64,000 bases of DNA from Leucocoprinus leucothites (lineage: Eukaryota; Basidiomycota; Agaricomycetes; Agaricales; Agaricaceae). Position 1 is the first letter of the stretch, and each line of letters begins with the position of its first letter. Both the position numbers and the translations under genes were made by a program. The stretch lies in contig JAACJO010000005.1 of assembly GCA_013368445.1 (NCBI GenBank), positions 992,001 through 1,056,000 of the forward strand, in the 5' to 3' direction. This document shows, piece by piece, positions 1 through 28,800 of the stretch. A model generated the notes under the pieces. The model searched no databases and was not told the DNA's origin. It saw nothing but the letters and a program-made list of their open reading frames with translations.

Positions 1-985
1 CACTTACTGCGAGAATGGGTGGAGTGAGGATTTAGGTATTCGCTTCATTGTAATTCCCGGTTCCTCCACGTGTATTGTTTAGTAGCAATGATAATCTGTT
101 TTTTCTCCAGGGGTATCCCCACACGTTCAGATTGCGACCACCACCCCAGGACATTTGACGATGTTTGCATGGTGTTACACGTGGAAGCACCGACAATAAA
201 GAGCCAGGACCAGAGAAACCAATTGGATCCATATTATTACAGTAATTTTCCACAGTGCCCTTGCGAGTTAAAGCCGATACACCGCATCCCCGCCCGGACC
301 TGAATCTTGGTCGCTCAATTTTGATATTCTCGTTATTGTTTTGTCTTGGGACAAGATTCTAGTGCTTCCCATATATATAGGCGCTCGTTGCTTCTCGCTC
401 CAAAACCATAAAAAAACTTCGGTTTCCATCACAGCCCTCTGTTTTTTTTTTGTTGACACCATACGAACCAGTGACTAGCGAGACAATAGCAGTTCCTTCT
501 TGCTCGATGGCCAAATTCATCCGCCAAATGCTTGACTGTCAGTGCTCAGCAGACCATTCATAGTGTACTTCTTCAGCAACAGTAGAAGACACAGGGCGTA
601 AATTAACGACATACAGCTATCGCTGGCGACAAAATTCCTGCCGGTTACAAGCATATTAATACAACGCGTGCGTTCAAAATTACAAACAAACAACACGGTG
701 CAATCTAGAAAGTCCGGCCCCTCCAGAGGACGCTGAAGCTATAAAACAAGAACTAAACGTGCTTCTGCCTCCGGAGTAAGCAACGAAAGGCGAATAAACA
801 AGGGCCCGAACAGAAGTTCCAGTTAGAAATGAGTGTGAATTCCAAATGAACGAAACGATAACAATATATCGTGACAGGGCGACATATGTTGGCCAAACCC
901 TGAGGTAGAAAGACGAAACTAAAGAGGCTGATGTCGTCGAGGCATTCAAGTCCAATGATTCATCAGGTACTGGGATACCGATATC
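1..985. other. Non-coding left edge
   Basis: I see no convincing gene in this stretch. Open frames are short, lack recognisable domains and lack plausible splice partners. A TATA-like run lies near 371-381 and is followed by a pyrimidine-rich tract ending around 450, which looks like a fungal core promoter. The only ATG frame soon after it (507) encodes just 17 codons. The right end, about 680-985, is probably the 3' untranslated region of the minus-strand gene that stops at 986. Confidence 0.4.
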
Positions 986-20143: not shown

Positions 20144-22825
20144 TCATATACTACTGTATATACTCTCCACCTTGTACATCGTCGTTTCCACTCTGGGAAT
20201 GTTATCATTGCCATAAATCGACGCCATCTTGTACATACTGGTGGGTACATTCTCCCCATACTTGGCGGAAGCAGACGCACCAGGTGCCGGGGCGGCCGCA
20301 TTTGACGGGTTGGGTGCAGCTTTGCTAGCAACGCCAGCGGCACGACCGTCAGGGATCTTGAAAAACTCTCTGACGCCATCCTTCTCGTTATCGTAGACAT
20401 AATAACCCTTCCTTTCGAACTGGATGATATCTCCTTTTTGGAGATTAAGAACGTTGGTATCACTGAAAGCAAACTCCTTGAATTCGGTCACGGGAGTGAC
20501 AAAGTCGGCGACATTGTCCTCTTCTTCAAGCTTCTTCTTTGTGATAAGGTAGTCGAAGTCGGTTAAAGTGATTGAGGGTAGAGGTTGGTCGGCTGTGGGC
20601 TCAGCAAGCCACGTAATCTTCTTTTTAGTCTTACGGAAATCTCCCTCGAGATGGAGATCCATGACAATCGAGAGGACCTTGCCAGACGAATCGACTTGCC
20701 TCTGACGGACAATAGCATTGCCCCAGTCCATGAGAGTGATCTGTGCCCTGTTATCAACAGATGGCTAACATGATTTCACTGGTATCTCACCTCCTCCTGA
20801 TCCTCGAAGGACGTGGCGTCCTCTTGCTCGATGATGATCTTGTTGGAGTATACAGTCATCTTCTCGCCAACTTCTGGGTTCTTTTTGTGCTTTGGAAGCA
20901 CTCGAACTTCGGGAGCGGTAGGTCCGTTTGTAAGTGTAACAAGTACACTTTTGAGAAGTCAGCCAAGAATCTGCTTCAAATCGTAGAAATGCAGTAAACT
21001 CACCTATTCTCTTTCAGAACAGCCCAGAATCGTGGAGCGACGGGATCTATGATCTTTTTATTCAACGTCCAGATAGAGTCCCACTCCAGGGAGACGACGG
21101 CCTGAGAAGGTCCCTGAGAGAGCATAAACTGTGTCAAAGCCTCGACAGTCATTCCCCGCCGACGGATTCCTGTGTTAAATTTCAGCAATTAATTAGAAGA
21201 CACCAGTAAGAACTCACCCCGAACAGTAGGGAAACGAGGATCATCCCATCCACTGACAAGACCCTCGTTGACAAACCAGTGAAGCTTGCGCTTCGACAGG
21301 AGTGTATAGATGAAATTAAGGCGGCTGAAATCCCAAATATTGACCTTGCGAATACCCAGAGCCTCGATCATCCAGTAATACTGTGGGTTGCGGTCACGAT
21401 ACTCGTTGGTTCTGAGCGCGTGTGTAACACCTTCTATGGAATCGACTACCGGGCAAGCAAAGTCGTAGGTCGGATACACCTTCCACTTATCACTGTCTCT
21501 ACCATCAGATACAGGAGTGAGTAGATTAAAGATATCATACCCTGTGCGATGGTGAGGGAGAGAATTGCATCTGTATACCACAGGGTCCCGAAGGGCTTTG
21601 TTGTTATCGTCCACGCTAATCTTGGCTCGGAGACACCATCGTGAACCTTCTTCGGAACCAGTTGTCATTTCCGCGAAGTGCTTCAAGTTTTCCTTGACAC
21701 TATCATCCCTGTGTTTGGATGGGATACCCTTTCCACGTTCCTCGCGCATCTGGCACTACATTAGAGCACGCGAGTCGGTAAGTAATGATGAAAAGAACCT
21801 GCTGTTGTTCAGTATCGTCAGCATACGCCTTGCCATCCTTGATGAGTTGGATAGCATAGTTATAAATTGTTTCGAAATAATCCGAGGTGTGAGTGACAAT
21901 GTCACCCTGAATGTCAAGTAGTTTCAAGTCCTCCAAAATGGTTTCTTCGAACTCAGACTACAACATATTGAGAGCCGGATTTTGGATTGACAATGAAATC
22001 CGACGTACCCTTTCTTTTGTTGGGTTGGTATCGTCAAATCGGATGATCAGTTTACCCTTGTACATTTTAGCGAAGTATTGGTTGAGAATTGCAGCCTTTG
22101 TGTGGCCGATATGGAGATAGCCACTTGGCTCAGGAGGGAAGCGGGTTACAACCTCGCCTTCCTTGGCATCTTGAAGACCTAGAGCAAATCCAGCAGCAGT
22201 CTTGTTTGACCGTGCCTTCTGGGCACGGGCATTGACAAGATCAGAAAGTATGGTCTGTGTTGAGTTCAATGACTCTAGATGGGTGATCCAGCGTCCAAGA
22301 TGCTGGTATATGTTGTTCTTAAGAATACCAATGATCTTGACATTGCCTATTATGGAAATTGATAAGATTCGCAGATATAAAAACCGATGATGTCAATTTC
22401 CTGACCTCGGATAGCACCCCATATAGCCCAATCAGAAGAGGAAATTTCATGGTTGACGAGGAAAGTGTGATATGCAAGGTAATTATCGAGAAGACCGAGG
22501 GCGGTGCCGATTTCGGGAAGAAGTGTCGCAGTTTTTACTGTTTTCGCGAGGGTGAAATATGCTGGTGTCTGGATAGACGTGTCATTATAAGTAAGCCGTG
22601 TCTATTAAGCCTGAAACATACCCGAGAACTATTTTCTAAGAGATTAGCCGCCCTCCCGAGGACCAGAACGATATCGTGTTCATCGTGATACGTTTTGCCG
22701 TCAAGTTCTAACGTGATGCCGGGAGCTGTCTCATCAAAAACGACAGCGGCCTTGCCTGTGTAGGCGGCGATGGCGATGACAGAGAAAGGGAATGGGGAGA
22801 TTTTTGAAGAGAGAGTAAGGGACAT
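20144..22825 (-). CDS. GUS1: Glutamyl-tRNA synthetase, cytosolic
   Basis: Nine exons (22825-22622, 22568-22406, 22346-22009, 21957-21799, 21749-21541, 21492-21218, 21169-21004, 20947-20791, 20740-20144) encode about 755 residues. This class I enzyme charges tRNA-Glu. The N-terminal ~150 residues form the GST-like domain typical of eukaryotic GluRS. The Rossmann core carries [20 protein letters not shown] (HIGH motif, about 201-204), [10 protein letters not shown] and the KMSKS equivalent LLSKRKL. The all-beta anticodon-binding half follows ([10 protein letters not shown] and [20 protein letters not shown]). The C-terminus has an Ala/Pro-rich spacer ending in the repeated short motif MYKMASIYG / MYKVESIYS. 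All introns are 48-59 nt and keep frame. The gene is divergent from LEU4 across a 186-bp promoter. Confidence 0.96.
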
Positions 22826-23011: not shown

Positions 23012-25603
23012 ATGCCTATGTTGTACGTGCTTCGTTTGTGTGTAATGGGTGCTGCTGATGCTCTATCACATTTAGGGCCAATCCCTCGCAAAAGTACCGT
23101 CCATATACACCCCTGAACCTTCCTAACCGACAATGGCCCTCGAAAACATTCACTAAGGCTCCCATTTGGCTATCGACTGACCTACGCGATGGAAACCAGG
23201 CTCTCGCAAACCCGATGACTATCGAACAAAAGACCACATTCTTCCGTCAGTTGGTCAAATGTGGTGTGAAGCAGATCGAAGTGGCATACCCAGCCGCTAG
23301 CGACACCGATTTTAATTTCGTCAGGGGTCTCATTTCCAACAACGAGATCCCTGACGACGTCTGGGTCCAGGTCTGATTCTCCACTATTATAGCCCAAACT
23401 TTTTCATGCTCACGGGGGGTTAGGTTTTAACGCCAGCAAGAGAAGATCTGATCAAACGAACGATCGACTCCGTAGCGGGTGCTAAACATGCAATCATCCA
23501 TATGTACAATGCGACTTCACCTACATTCCGTCAGGTCGTCTTCCGAAACTCAAAAGAGCAGACCATCGAGCTAGCTGTAAAGCACACCAAGATCGTCAAG
23601 CAGTTGACCGAGGAGTGCACCGCCAAATATGGAACGAAGTTCAAGTATGAGTACAGTCCCGAGACTTTCTCGCAGACGGAACCGGAATTTGCTGTGGAAA
23701 TTTGTGAAGCTGTCAAGGCTACGTGGGGCAAGGCCGGCACCGGTGAAGACCGTATAATCTTCAATTTGCCCACCACAGTGGAAATCTCACCCCCTAACCA
23801 TTATGCCGATCAGGTACTCAATCTATATTAATCAACGGATACGCCGTCTTACTACCCATCTCTCCAGATTGAGTACTTCTGCAGTCACATTTCTGAACGT
23901 GAAAAGGTCATCGTTAGTTTACATCCTCACAACGACCGAGGTGTGTTCTCTTTCACGTTACTAATTGTATTCGCTTTTAACCGGACATCGCAGGTACCGG
24001 AATTGCTTCGGCCGAACTTGGTGTCCTTGCGGGCGGTGATCGCATTGAGGGTTGTCTCTTCGGGAACGGAGAACGGACAGGCAATGTCGATCTCGTAAAC
24101 CTCGCTTTGAATCTGTACACCCAAGGCATCACCCCTGGCCTTGAGTTTGGTGACCTGCAGAGCGTCATTGACACCGTTACCCAATGTAACGATCTCCCCG
24201 TCCATCCTCGTCATCCATACGCTGGTGAACTAGTCTTCACTGCGTTCTCTGGATCCCACCAGGATGCCATAAAAAAGGGCTTCGAAGCCCAGAAAATTCG
24301 CCATGTCGAAGCAGCCGCCAAGGGCGAACCGCTTTACTGGGACATGCCCTACCTCCCCATTGATCCTGCAGACCTCGGACAGACATATGAAGCTGTCATC
24401 CGGGTCAACTCTCAATCTGGCAAGGGTGGTATTGCCTACCTCATCAAGCAAAACCTTGGCCTGGACCTTCCTCGCAAAATGCAAGTTGCTTTCTATCAGG
24501 TCATTCAGGCGATTTCGGATCGCGAGGCGCGCGAGATGACGGTAGACGACATTACTACTGCGTTCCGTTCGACATACCACTTTGGTGGGCCGAAATACCA
24601 AGGTCGTTTGGCCCTCCGAAACTTCAAAATTTCGGCCGAGCCGAGTCCAGAGCCTCAAGACGAGGGAACTGATGAGCAGCCGGACGAACGACGTCACTTT
24701 GATGGCACGTTACTCGTTGATGGTGTCTACAGGGTCATTCGCGGAGACGGAAATGGTCCTCTTTCTGCTCTCTTGGATGCTCTTCGCCAGCATCTGCAGA
24801 TCGATCTCACTATTCGTGAGTATTCAGAACATGCCGTAGGCGAGGGCAAGGACGTAAAGGCTGCGTCATATGTCGAGGTCGTCCCCGCTGATGACCGCAA
24901 GTCTGCGACATCATGGTGGGGTGTTGGTATCGACTCTGACATCGCTGGCTCTGGTCTGCGCGCTCTCTTGAGTGCCGTCAACTTTGCCATCGGTGACCGT
25001 GCCCTACCTGAACTTAAGTTGAACGTTGGCTTCGGTGCCACAACCGCTCAAGCAGATATCTCCAGTGCCATTGTCAATGCTCTCGGTCTCGAACTTCCTC
25101 GCAGGTTCCAATCTGCCTTCTTTGAAGTCGTCCAACGTTACGCACGCGATAGGGAATCCCAAATTTCATATGACGACCTCATTCAATTGTTCCAGAACAC
25201 TTATTATTTTGGTATCCCCTCGAAATACGATCTGGTCTCCTTCAAAATGGAGCATCTCGACGGTACTCGCCGCCAATTGAATGGAGAGTTCCTATTCTCT
25301 GGCGAGAAGCGTAAAGTTAGTGGGGAGGGTAACGGTCCTTTATCCGCTACTCTTGCAGCCCTGAACCAGCAGATAAGCGGCACGTTGTCGATTAGAGAGT
25401 ACTCGGAGCATTCGATTGGTGAGGGAACGGAAGTGGTAGCCGCATCGTATGTGGAACTGGTGTACGAGGCCCCTGGACAGAAGAAGACGTCCGCATGGGG
25501 TGTTGGTGCAGATGCAGATATTACAGCATCTGGTCTCAAGGCCGTCCTGAATTCGGCGAGTACTTTGGATGTGGTGGCGCTCAAGGTGGTGAATGGGCAC
25601 TGA
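23012..25603 (+). CDS. LEU4: 2-isopropylmalate synthase with duplicated C-terminal regulatory region
   Basis: Five exons (23012-23022, 23076-23370, 23424-23813, 23868-23940, 23994-25603) give 792 residues, well above the ~600-640 typical of fungal enzymes. It condenses acetyl-CoA with 2-ketoisovalerate, the first step of leucine synthesis. The TIM barrel is intact: [51 protein letters not shown], and the metal site [17 protein letters not shown]. After [18 protein letters not shown] the LeuA-type regulatory region occurs twice: about residues 411-588 and again at about 620-778. Each copy has LGL(D/E)[11 protein letters not shown] or [14 protein letters not shown] and a WGVG box. The first coding exon is 11 nt. 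No mitochondrial presequence is evident, so the product could be cytosolic. Leucine feedback through either copy is inferred. Confidence 0.96.
24455..25558 (+). repeat. Tandem duplication inside LEU4 coding sequence
   Basis: The protein segments encoded by 24455-24988 and 25082-25558 align along their whole length: [106 protein letters not shown] and [34 protein letters not shown]. Spacing between copies is about 209 codons. Divergence is considerable, so the duplication is old. Confidence 0.9.
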
Positions 25604-25879
25604 GCTCTGAGCCGCGGCTTGATGATGGGAGGAGTCAAAATGAGGAAAATGAAGTACCCATAAAAAGCTGTATTATCTACTTGGGATTTTGACAAACATG
25701 AATTATCTTGTATCATTCTGACAACGAGGCACTGGGCGTTTGGGCGCTCAGGGTCGGAGACGAAAAGAGAGACCCAAGTCACATTGACAGAAAAGTAAAG
25801 CTGTCACTCTGATCCATCCACATCCAAATAAGGGTTGGGCACTTCTCTGTTCGCTCATTCTGGCAAACTACAGCATCCC

Positions 25880-28800
25880 ATGCCTACTTCCCCAGGCCGC
25901 ACCTCGCGGTATTCCCGCGACTCACCCAACAACATGTCCAGCTCACGCACCCTCGGAGCATCCCTCTCAAGTTCCAGACCTTTTCTCAACATGATTAACC
26001 CCATGACGTCGCGCACTTACCAAGGATACATCCGAGCAGACCAGTCTCCAGTCGAAGAGGAGAATGAACTCGAGGAGCGGGATCTCGAATCTGGCAGGCG
26101 TAGTAGAGGAAGTTCATCTGGCACGAGCCGAGCTGCCAATGCCAGGAGTCCCAGTGCTGGTGCGGGTGGGCAGACGAGGAATAGTGGGACTCGGGATGCT
26201 CAGCCAGCTGCGGGTGGTAGTGGCTCGGATATGAATTCACTGCGACCGAATATCAAGAGAGAGGATGATGATAAGAGGGGGGATTCATCTGACGATGAGG
26301 TTCCACAGAGTTTCATAATAGAAACTCCTGCCTCGAGGGCCAACGCCGCATATAACAAGGCCTCTTCACCCAGAACCAAAGGCAAGGCCAAAGCCTCTAA
26401 TTCCTCAGCAGCAACTCCTCAGAGGGGACAGCCTTTACATTCTGTTGCTGGTCGGAAAGTGCCTCCTTCCGGTCCAATTCTTCCTGTCACCAATGTGAGC
26501 ATTCCACCAAGACCTTCAGATTTGGATCAGGAGGAACACCAGGCAAGACCTTATAGTACATCGGCTGCTTCGAATTCTGGGGAGAGTAATGGTACTGGAG
26601 GTGCGAGAAGACCGAGGATGGGAGGGTTGGATGCATATGAACGGGCGTTGTGGAATTGGGTCAACGTGTATAATTTGGATGCGTTTTTGCAAGAGGTTTA
26701 TTACTATTATGAGGGAAAGGGGATATACAGCATTGCTCTTGCGAGAGGGCTGAATTTACTGTGAGTGTTGCTTTGTTCTCTTTGGATTTCTCGTGTTAAT
26801 AGCTTTATGACAGGACAATGGGCTTTGTTATTGGGTTCTCGACCTTTTTGCTTGGCTGTGTCGACTACTCGAAACTGTGGCATGGAAGTGCAACGCGTCT
26901 TTCCGAAATAGTTGTCAATAAATGTGTATCCAAGTAAGCACTCCCCCCAATTTATAATGAGGATAGTATATTGATGGACTTTTCCTTACAGGTTCCACGG
27001 ACTGGCACTTCTCTTCTTCATTCTCTTCCTCGCATTCTACATCTGGCAAATCATCTCATTCGTACTCGACATTCACCGCCTAATTGACATGTACAACTTT
27101 TACACCCACCTGCTCAAAGTACCCGACGTGCGTCTCCTCTTCACTGTCATCTCCTCTCCCCTAAGCTGACCCATCCAGGCCGACATCCAAACAATCTCCT
27201 GGCCCGAAATCGTCCGTCGTATCGGCGCAATACGTGAAGAAAACCCCATTACTGCTCTCTCCTCTAAAAACTCTGCCCACGGAATTACCAACGACACGAC
27301 CACAGCCAAACTAGATGCTCACGACATCGCTAATCGTATTATGAGACAAGAAAACTATCTTATAGCCTTGTTCAATAAAGAACTTCTTGACTTGCGTGTA
27401 CCTTTGCCTAAACCGTTGGGGAGGTTCGTTCCGGAGGAGAAGGGAAAGGGGAAAGTGTTGACGCAGGCACTGGAGTGGAATTTGAGGTTTTGTTTGATGG
27501 ATTATTTGTTTGATCATCATGGGAGGGTTAGGAAGGTGTTTTTGAAGAGTAAGAATAGGAGAGTGTTGATTGAGGGGTGGGTTTTCTCTGGAGTTTTCTT
27601 AGTTGGGTGCTCACGCAATAGAGCAGATTACGGCGCAGATTTATTTTCATGGGTATTCTGAACGCTATTTTTGCGCCGTTCATTGTGTTGTATTTAATCA
27701 TGTATTCTTTCTTCCGGTACTTTGAGGTATGCCTCCTGACATTTTGCTTTGTTGACTTTATTGACGAACTTGTGCGAAGGAATACCACAAAGACCCGTCT
27801 TCTATCGGTGGTCGACGATACACGTCCTACTCTAAATGGAAATTCCGGGAATTTAACGAACTGCATCATTTCTTTGTACGACGCCTAGACGAAAGCTATC
27901 CTGTTGCAAATATCTACATTGGACAATTTCCAAATGAGAAGCTGTCACTCATCATGAGGTGTGTATCCATCCTTCTACTTTCCCCCTCCACTGTCTTATT
28001 AGGTGCTTAGATTCGTATCATTCGTTGCTGGGGCATTTACAGCTGTCCTTGTCCTCGTATCTGTGATCGACCCAGACCTCGTGCTGAATTTTGAAATCTC
28101 ACCTCATCGAAATGTGGCGTTTTATGTTGCAGTATTCGGTGGTATACTTACTGTTGCAAGGGGAATGATTCCGGAAGAGAATAGGGTGTTTGATCCAGAG
28201 TTGTTAATGACGGAGGTGATCACTTATACACATTATATGCCAGAGGAGTGGAAGTCTCAACTCCACAGCAAACTGGTAAATGGCTTTTTTCGGGAAGGAA
28301 ATCATCGTCGTATATTGATTTTTGTTTCTGATTAGGTGCACCAAGAGTTTGGGGAACTATTTGCGATGAAAGTCTTGATATTCGCACAAGAGCTCGTATC
28401 GGTTGTGCTCACACCTTTTGTGCTCTGGTTCTCTCTACCGGACTGTGCACCAGCCATCATCGATTTCTTCCGCGAATTTTCTGTGCATGTGGATGGTAGA
28501 GGGTATGTCTGTAGTTTTGCAGAATTCAATTTCGAGAGACACGGTAATGTCAAGGTATGGCCTTAATTACTCTATCATAAACCCTTTCACTCACTCATAT
28601 GTAGTTTGGCGCACCAACGCGAGCAAACGATACAAAGATGATTTCCAATGAAGGCAAGATGGAGAAATCGTTCCTCAATTTCAAAGCCGCAAACCCCGAC
28701 TGGAACCCTACCGACCCCTCGGGATCACTATACCTCAGCCGTATAGCTGATCTCACTACTCCATTTGGCACAGGAGTGGGTGTCGGTGGTGGACCGGGAA

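Follow-up and report, generated by a model that had tools for sequence, protein, structure and literature searches.

A doubled regulatory module in the 2-isopropylmalate synthase of a mushroom

The 2-isopropylmalate synthase (IPMS) of the mushroom Leucocoprinus leucothites carries two tandem copies of its C-terminal regulatory module on a single chain. The gene occupies positions 23012-25603 (+) of the window, the whole 64,000-nucleotide stretch of DNA analyzed here, and its five exons encode a product of 792 amino acids. IPMS, with a single leucine site on each chain, is a classic textbook example of inhibition by an end product. We conclude that the doubled module is a real, old and widely shared architectural variant of this classic feedback enzyme; comparison of the two copies suggests that the second may provide a further leucine site. 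The variant is a natural experiment in the evolution of allosteric control by domain duplication, and leucine-feedback models and maps of feedback-resistant mutants from yeast and bacteria are not simply transferable to mushrooms.

All four introns of the gene follow the GT...AG pattern, and exon 5 (23994-25603, 1610 bp, free of internal stops) supplies the protein from residue 257 (in part) through 792. The protein scored 911.8 bits against the curated equivalog TIGR00970 (cut-off 697.4), which assigns it to the LEU4 type, and fell below the cut-offs for citramalate and homocitrate synthases (TIGR00977, 70.6 of 450; TIGR02146, 79.1 of 413.55; TIGR02660, 82.1 of 462.9). Pfam recognized HMGL-like (PF00682), IPMS_D2 (PF22615) and LeuA_dimer (PF08502) domains, the last with 155.4 bits in two stretches. 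Catalytic residues whose roles are listed for Mycobacterium tuberculosis LeuA (excerpts of PMC2704214) were all found when mapped onto the window protein: D42, H251, H253, 280-GNGERTG-286 and N287. The protein shares its barrel, its subdomains and an R domain with leucine-contact residues with the LEU4-type enzymes (TIGR00970) of Fusarium, Aspergillus and Saccharomyces. However, those enzymes have one module of subdomain II plus R domain and the window protein has two (Saccharomyces being compared from the literature, unaligned), a departure from the usual one R domain per chain that lies outside the curated LEU4/TIGR00970 definition. M. tuberculosis LeuA (1sr9; 3fig with leucine) likewise has one R domain per chain, versus two here.

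Table 1 Features of the two-module gene (window positions) and the second IPMS gene of the same genome (genome position).
Feature	Position	Residues	Strand	Basis or remark
Whole coding gene	exons 23012-23022, 23076-23370, 23424-23813, 23868-23940, 23994-25603		+	splice model, exon sum in frame
HMGL-like TIM barrel, catalytic	23161..24178	33-318	+	PF00682 2.9e-72; spans introns 2-4
IPMS_D2 post-catalytic domain, roughly subdomain I	24227..24448	335-408	+	PF22615 3.5e-32
Copy 1 subdomain II, three helices	24422..24592	400-456	+
Copy 1 R domain (R1)	24593..24988	457-588	+	Pfam, BLAST, AlphaFold2
R1 GNGPLS, pocket helix start	24749..24766	509-514	+	equivalents of M. tuberculosis G531-A536
R1 pocket strand and loop	24812..24862	530-546 (I530, Y533, V544, A546)	+
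Linker joining both modules	24989..25033	589-603	+
Copy 2 subdomain II, three helices	25034..25216	604-664	+	BLAST, AlphaFold2
Copy 2 R domain (R2)	25217..25564	665-780	+	Pfam, six-frame scan, BLAST, AlphaFold2
R2 GNGPLS, pocket helix start	25328..25345	702-707	+
R2 pocket strand and loop	25391..25441	723-739 (I723, Y726, S730, V737, A739)	+
Second IPMS gene (P0121, L004)	G000:C1:3555847 (start) to about 3553540		-	genome scan

An earlier, sequence-only reading of this stretch had proposed two tandem copies of the LeuA C-terminal region within the last exon, at 24455-25558 (residues 411-778), and both the doubling and its placement held. R1 (411-590) and R2 (620-792) were 44% identical over 177 columns in BLASTP (E 4e-46); their local alignment score of 336 compares with a mean of 29 and a maximum of 55 among 1000 shuffles (z = 61). 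Both LeuA_dimer copies were recovered in one open frame by a six-frame scan of the 47-Mb genome, at 81.7 and 80.8 bits. Structure prediction with AlphaFold2, which that reading had called for, placed helices and strands in an order that occurs twice along the chain. The VIA structure listing contained no separate R2 row against LeuA; a Foldseek match to 3fig_B at 25% identity may represent the predicted R2. Self-BLAST of the whole chain returned nothing beyond the full-length self match, and the halves were therefore compared directly. A search for direct DNA repeats revealed the copies just as one 41-nt block at 71%, a faint signal that is expected because the copies are old. The R domain is doubled, as had been described, but what is repeated extends beyond the regulatory region and includes a copy of subdomain II (residues about 604-664); weak similarity between the copies starts near residue 390/596.

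The idea that the second copy arose as an assembly duplication, or is removed by splicing, has nothing in its favor beyond the repeat itself. Across 159 aligned codons the DNA of the copies is just 52% identical, with matching third bases in 30 of the 71 identical residues, indicating an old duplication without recent conversion. The window's own protein is also present in public data (P0001, from a 2319-nt contig), identical over residues 74-792 and uninterrupted across the places of introns 2-4, as fits a spliced transcript with both copies; no intron appears to remove either one. This contig is 1 nt shorter than an intron-retaining sequence for residues 73-792 would need (2160 + 160 = 2320), and with so bare a margin, and a GTG start read as Met, the cDNA reading supports splicing without proving it. 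The 'lgn' contigs are, at a guess, read assemblies. Finally, many named species share the two-copy form, which 221 of the fetched proteins show in addition to P0001, and so it is not an assembly duplication. Taken together, the DNA divergence, P0001 and the 221 further proteins rule out the artefact, whose probability we regard as negligible.

The distribution of the two forms was surveyed in 299 proteins (P0001-P0299) obtained from three protein searches, as the best 120 of 1689, 7996 and 186 matches; they include P0001 and the window genome's own paralog, P0121. Counted by a BLAST rule, 222 of these best-listed matches had two modules, 76 had one and one had none. Being drawn from the best matches, these counts are not population frequencies, and the rows are not all distinct species. 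In the first search two modules were present in 120/120; the second added 107 new rows (39 two, 67 one, 1 none) and the third 72 (63 two, 9 one). Two-module proteins occurred in Agaricus, Coprinopsis, Schizophyllum, Armillaria, Boletus, Trametes, Gloeophyllum, Stereum, Fomitiporia, Ramaria, Auricularia, Sistotremastrum, Serendipita, Tulasnella and Ceratobasidium, which we take to cover most orders of Agaricomycetes, and in Calocera viscosa (Dacrymycetes). Two LeuA_dimer stretches were seen by Pfam in the Calocera (P0282), Serendipita (P0288) and Ceratobasidium (P0224) proteins. The architecture stands as observed, and the notion that it might be unique to this species does not survive. The alternative, an Agaricomycetes lineage trait, was right as to a lineage and too narrow in its limits, because Calocera has both copies.

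Outside these groups a single region was the rule among the matches listed, as the earlier reading had stated for known fungal and bacterial enzymes. One module was found in Wallemia ichthyophaga, Pseudohyphozyma (Pucciniomycotina) and six ascomycete proteins, that is, in 8/8 named rows of the third search outside Agaricomycetes and Dacrymycetes (Pfam being run on three), and exactly one in 81/81 bacterial catalytic ORFs (best 80 of 595 confirmed loci). Tremellomycetes, Ustilaginomycotina and rusts were absent from the named matches listed (best 120 of 1689, 7996 and 186). Some entries had unusual arrangements. Two bacterial contigs (L050, L057) each contain two adjoining LeuA-like ORFs, with one R-domain match per ORF. 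In Rhizoctonia solani entries P0280, P0281 and P0283-P0286 the enzyme is joined to histone-fold domains (PF00808, PF00125), and in Wallemia entry P0290 to a signal-peptidase subunit (PF06703); these joined entries are probably gene-model fusions.

The simplest history is one gain of the module, after the split from Wallemia and before that of Dacrymycetes and Agaricomycetes. Module trees are consistent with this history, though short of proof: 19 of 20, or 18 of 19, R2 sequences grouped together, the R2 of Calocera straying. A single R2 clade was not rejected in two tree sets (p-AU 0.336 and 0.357), nor was a separate clade of Calocera R1 and R2 (p-AU 0.219 and 0.0972); a separate duplication in Dacrymycetes is conceivable on these sequences. 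An independent duplication in Serendipita, with its R1 and R2 as one clade, was rejected (p 0.033). Single-R rows took weakly supported positions, either separating R1 from R2 or next to them, and a grouping of R1 and R2 (with or without paralogs) against the singles was not rejected (p-AU 0.346 and 0.44). The taxon spread favors gain of a module over a duplication that predates the split from single-R fungi.

The genome contains a second gene with a LeuA_dimer domain, which encodes a 664-residue protein with one R domain (P0121) in seven exons. Its catalytic motifs GNGERTGN and HPHNDRG are intact, and its pocket motif reads GRGIVL where the window protein has GNGPLS. The R domain itself scored 21.5 bits in Pfam, below the cut-off of 24.9, and 24.3 bits in the genome scan (25.1 with neighbors), where it was scored as over the cut-off. 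Among the matches listed, similar paralogs occurred in many Agaricales and in Amylostereum, Vararia, Rickenella, Ramaria and Exidia. The pocket motifs were kept in 0/68 single-R paralogs (67 best-listed matches of the second search, plus P0296) and both were kept in 7/8 canonical single-R proteins. The loss in paralogs suggests that the fold by itself does not require the pocket residues. The R domain of the paralogs groups with R1 (support 97/70), the catalytic-domain tree leaves their placement without resolution, and the 6-kb region around the window genome's own paralog contains no R2. Judging by its motifs, the paralog is perhaps a leucine-resistant isozyme, although this is a guess. Two polypore proteins, P0292 (Daedaleopsis nitida) and P0296 (Trametes maxima), have two-module length and degenerate-looking pocket motifs (GEGPGALS and ERGEDALR in P0292); for P0296 Pfam gave two weak R stretches and the BLAST rule one. 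By sequence they appear to represent a second, divergent paralog.

Leucine is bound in M. tuberculosis LeuA by six residues, L535, A536, V551, Y554, A565 and A567 (excerpts of PMC2704214). At the aligned positions the window protein has L, S, I, Y, V and A in R1 and the identical set in R2. Conservation was expressed as sequence-weighted majority frequency over 223 rows (the 222 two-module proteins plus the window protein; effective n 97), and its weighted mean over all columns was 0.732 in R1 and 0.633 in R2. Compared with random six-column sets, a test that treats columns as exchangeable in related, Agaricales-rich sequences with the window protein counted twice, the contact columns of R2 were unusually conserved (weighted 0.867, P 0.006; unweighted 0.930, P 0.003) and those of R1 were not (0.788, P 0.28; 0.845, P 0.27). 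Individually, R2 exceeded R1 at L535 (0.99 versus 0.89), V551 (0.68 versus 0.55) and A565 (0.87 versus 0.46), R1 exceeded R2 at A536 (0.99 versus 0.90) and Y554 (0.92 versus 0.82), and the copies were level at A567 (0.92 in R1, 0.93 in R2). A strict two-motif pocket pattern was matched by R1 in 133/223 and by R2 in 197/223 rows, 26 R2 copies lying outside it. R2 evolves faster than R1 overall, yet its six contact columns are specially kept as a set. Apparently R2 is an added sensor under selection at its pocket, and the second effector site proposed at the outset gains support from the identical contact residues and the unusual conservation of the R2 set.

The ancestral body is preserved in R1, and R2 is a diverged copy that nonetheless keeps its leucine pocket, as indicated by the higher overall conservation of R1 and its closeness to the single-R fungal proteins: R1 was the nearer copy in 8/8, averaging 42-52% identity to their R domain. 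Conservation differed in subdomain II (R1 0.806, R2 0.667) and the first half of R (0.778, 0.534), and showed no significant difference in the second half (0.738, 0.700; p 0.31). Because this second half, which holds most of the loop, is similarly conserved in both copies, constraint on the pocket is hard to separate from constraint on the fold in general. R2 might be viewed as chiefly a structural or oligomerization domain that has lost leucine sensing, its conserved residues forming a fold core. Its lower overall conservation fits such a role, as do values below 0.6 at 14 positions where R1 has at least 0.9, and the two contact columns, out of six, in which R1 is the better conserved copy. 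However, those six columns stand well above the R2 mean, and the single-R paralogs lose the contact residues. Moreover, of just six paired positions with R2 clearly above R1 (at least 0.85, gap above 0.15), three (A537/S730, G539/G732, V544/V737) lie on or beside the leucine-closing loop, as placed by our own reading of the A555 neighbors in excerpts of PMC11057210 against the window alignment. We therefore consider a purely structural R2 improbable.

The explanation we prefer is that both R domains bind leucine, R1 coupling to the barrel and R2 supplying a retained pocket that tunes inhibition. We assign this explanation as a whole, including the identification of the window gene as the main, leucine-feedback-regulated IPMS of a mushroom, a probability of about 0.6. 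An old in-frame tandem duplication of the module of subdomain II and R would have produced two leucine-type R domains per chain, and a homodimer of such chains would have four pockets, not two. In M. tuberculosis LeuA the interface of the R-domain dimer contains both pockets, a loop closes over leucine (excerpts of PMC11057210), and the signal travels via a linker to the barrel (excerpts of PMC2704214). By analogy with this linker, R1, whose position after subdomain I matches that in single-R enzymes, would relay the signal to the catalytic barrel and hold the structural core. R2 would be attached to R1, with much of the constraint lost from the first half of R and some from subdomain II, and would act as an additional leucine site, making the response steeper or displacing it through the affinity or cooperativity of inhibition.

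The location of the LeuA pockets at a dimer interface (excerpts of PMC11057210) also invites a different pairing, proposed in the earlier reading as a pseudo-symmetric dimer, in which R1 meets R2 of its own chain as a leucine-binding pair and the R:R' contact is replaced or doubled. Both copies keep the pocket residues, and the R1-R2 stretch alone was predicted with a pLDDT of 92.9 and a pTM of 0.69 (0.62 for the full chain). However, a pTM of 0.69 is a middling value when the two units are nearly equal, each R domain is held apart by its own subdomain II and the linker, and R1-specific conservation would be expected equally from R1:R1' and R2:R2' pairing. Intrachain pairing is possible, though it strikes us as somewhat unlikely.

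A further variant assigns leucine sensing mainly to R2 and leaves R1 as a coupling or dimer module whose drifting pocket binds leucine weakly or takes another effector. In R1 the equivalent of A558 varies (S 79, A 61, T 59, I 17 and V 4 of 223). Variable R1 pocket positions hold mostly small residues (A/S/T/V, some I), and R1 may therefore bind leucine as well as R2. A shift of sensing to R2 is, on these sequences, unlikely. If true, it would, with the widespread single-R isozyme that has lost its pocket, constitute two-isozyme, multi-site control of leucine synthesis, which we found described for no other group. The same variation at A558 could be taken to mean that R1 or R2 senses something else, such as CoA, an analogue of leucine or a different branched-chain amino acid, and that two signals are integrated. 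Structures with isoleucine exist for a related R domain, that of Leptospira citramalate synthase, according to the titles of 3f6g and 3f6h; that system is another enzyme with an isoleucine effector, and the structures cover just its R domain. L-Cyclopropylalanine from Amanita virgineoides is reported to inhibit the enzyme, mimicking feedback (excerpts of PMC6149818). The two pockets of the window protein are, however, identical at all six contact positions, and a different effector appears doubtful. Leucine-like inhibitors made by mushrooms, such as cyclopropylalanine, may at a guess have been the selective reason for a second module.

In yeast, control is divided between the sensitive Leu4 and the relatively resistant Leu9, which act as homo- and heterodimers (excerpts of PMC7418496). 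Saccharomyces resembles the mushroom in having two genes for the enzyme, the mushroom paralog being without pocket motifs. The pair of a two-R enzyme and a pocket-less one could be a mushroom analogue of Leu4/Leu9; yeast obtains its variety from two genes and heterodimers, and the mushroom adds two R domains per chain. Yeast residue G516 has been placed at the leucine site (excerpts of PMC6558412), and LEU4 has been treated as gained in Dikarya (excerpts of PMC9202105). The 'tandem repeats' of M. tuberculosis LeuA are, in contrast to the doubling described here, 19-residue units in a disordered R loop, not a doubled R domain (excerpts of PMC2704214). The origins of fungal IPMS were treated by Larson and Idnurm in 2010 (PMC2904702), whose text, in the portion consulted, makes no mention of a doubled R domain; the terms 'repeat', 'LeuA domain' and 'dimerization' are absent from the part of its main text that was covered. 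In PMC6862759, as far as excerpts go, 'LeuA dimer' appears just as a superfamily name. We found no description of a duplicated R domain in IPMS in the open literature, a body that leaves aside preprints and most subscription papers.

A stop-free frame of 199 codons runs antisense to R2 (window 25204-25803, - strand) and is probably a by-product of coding-strand composition. The IPMS gene is flanked by genes that, by their translated frames, look like those for a glutamyl/glutaminyl-tRNA synthetase (21189-22392, - strand) and an Atg9-like autophagy protein (25832-26764, + strand).
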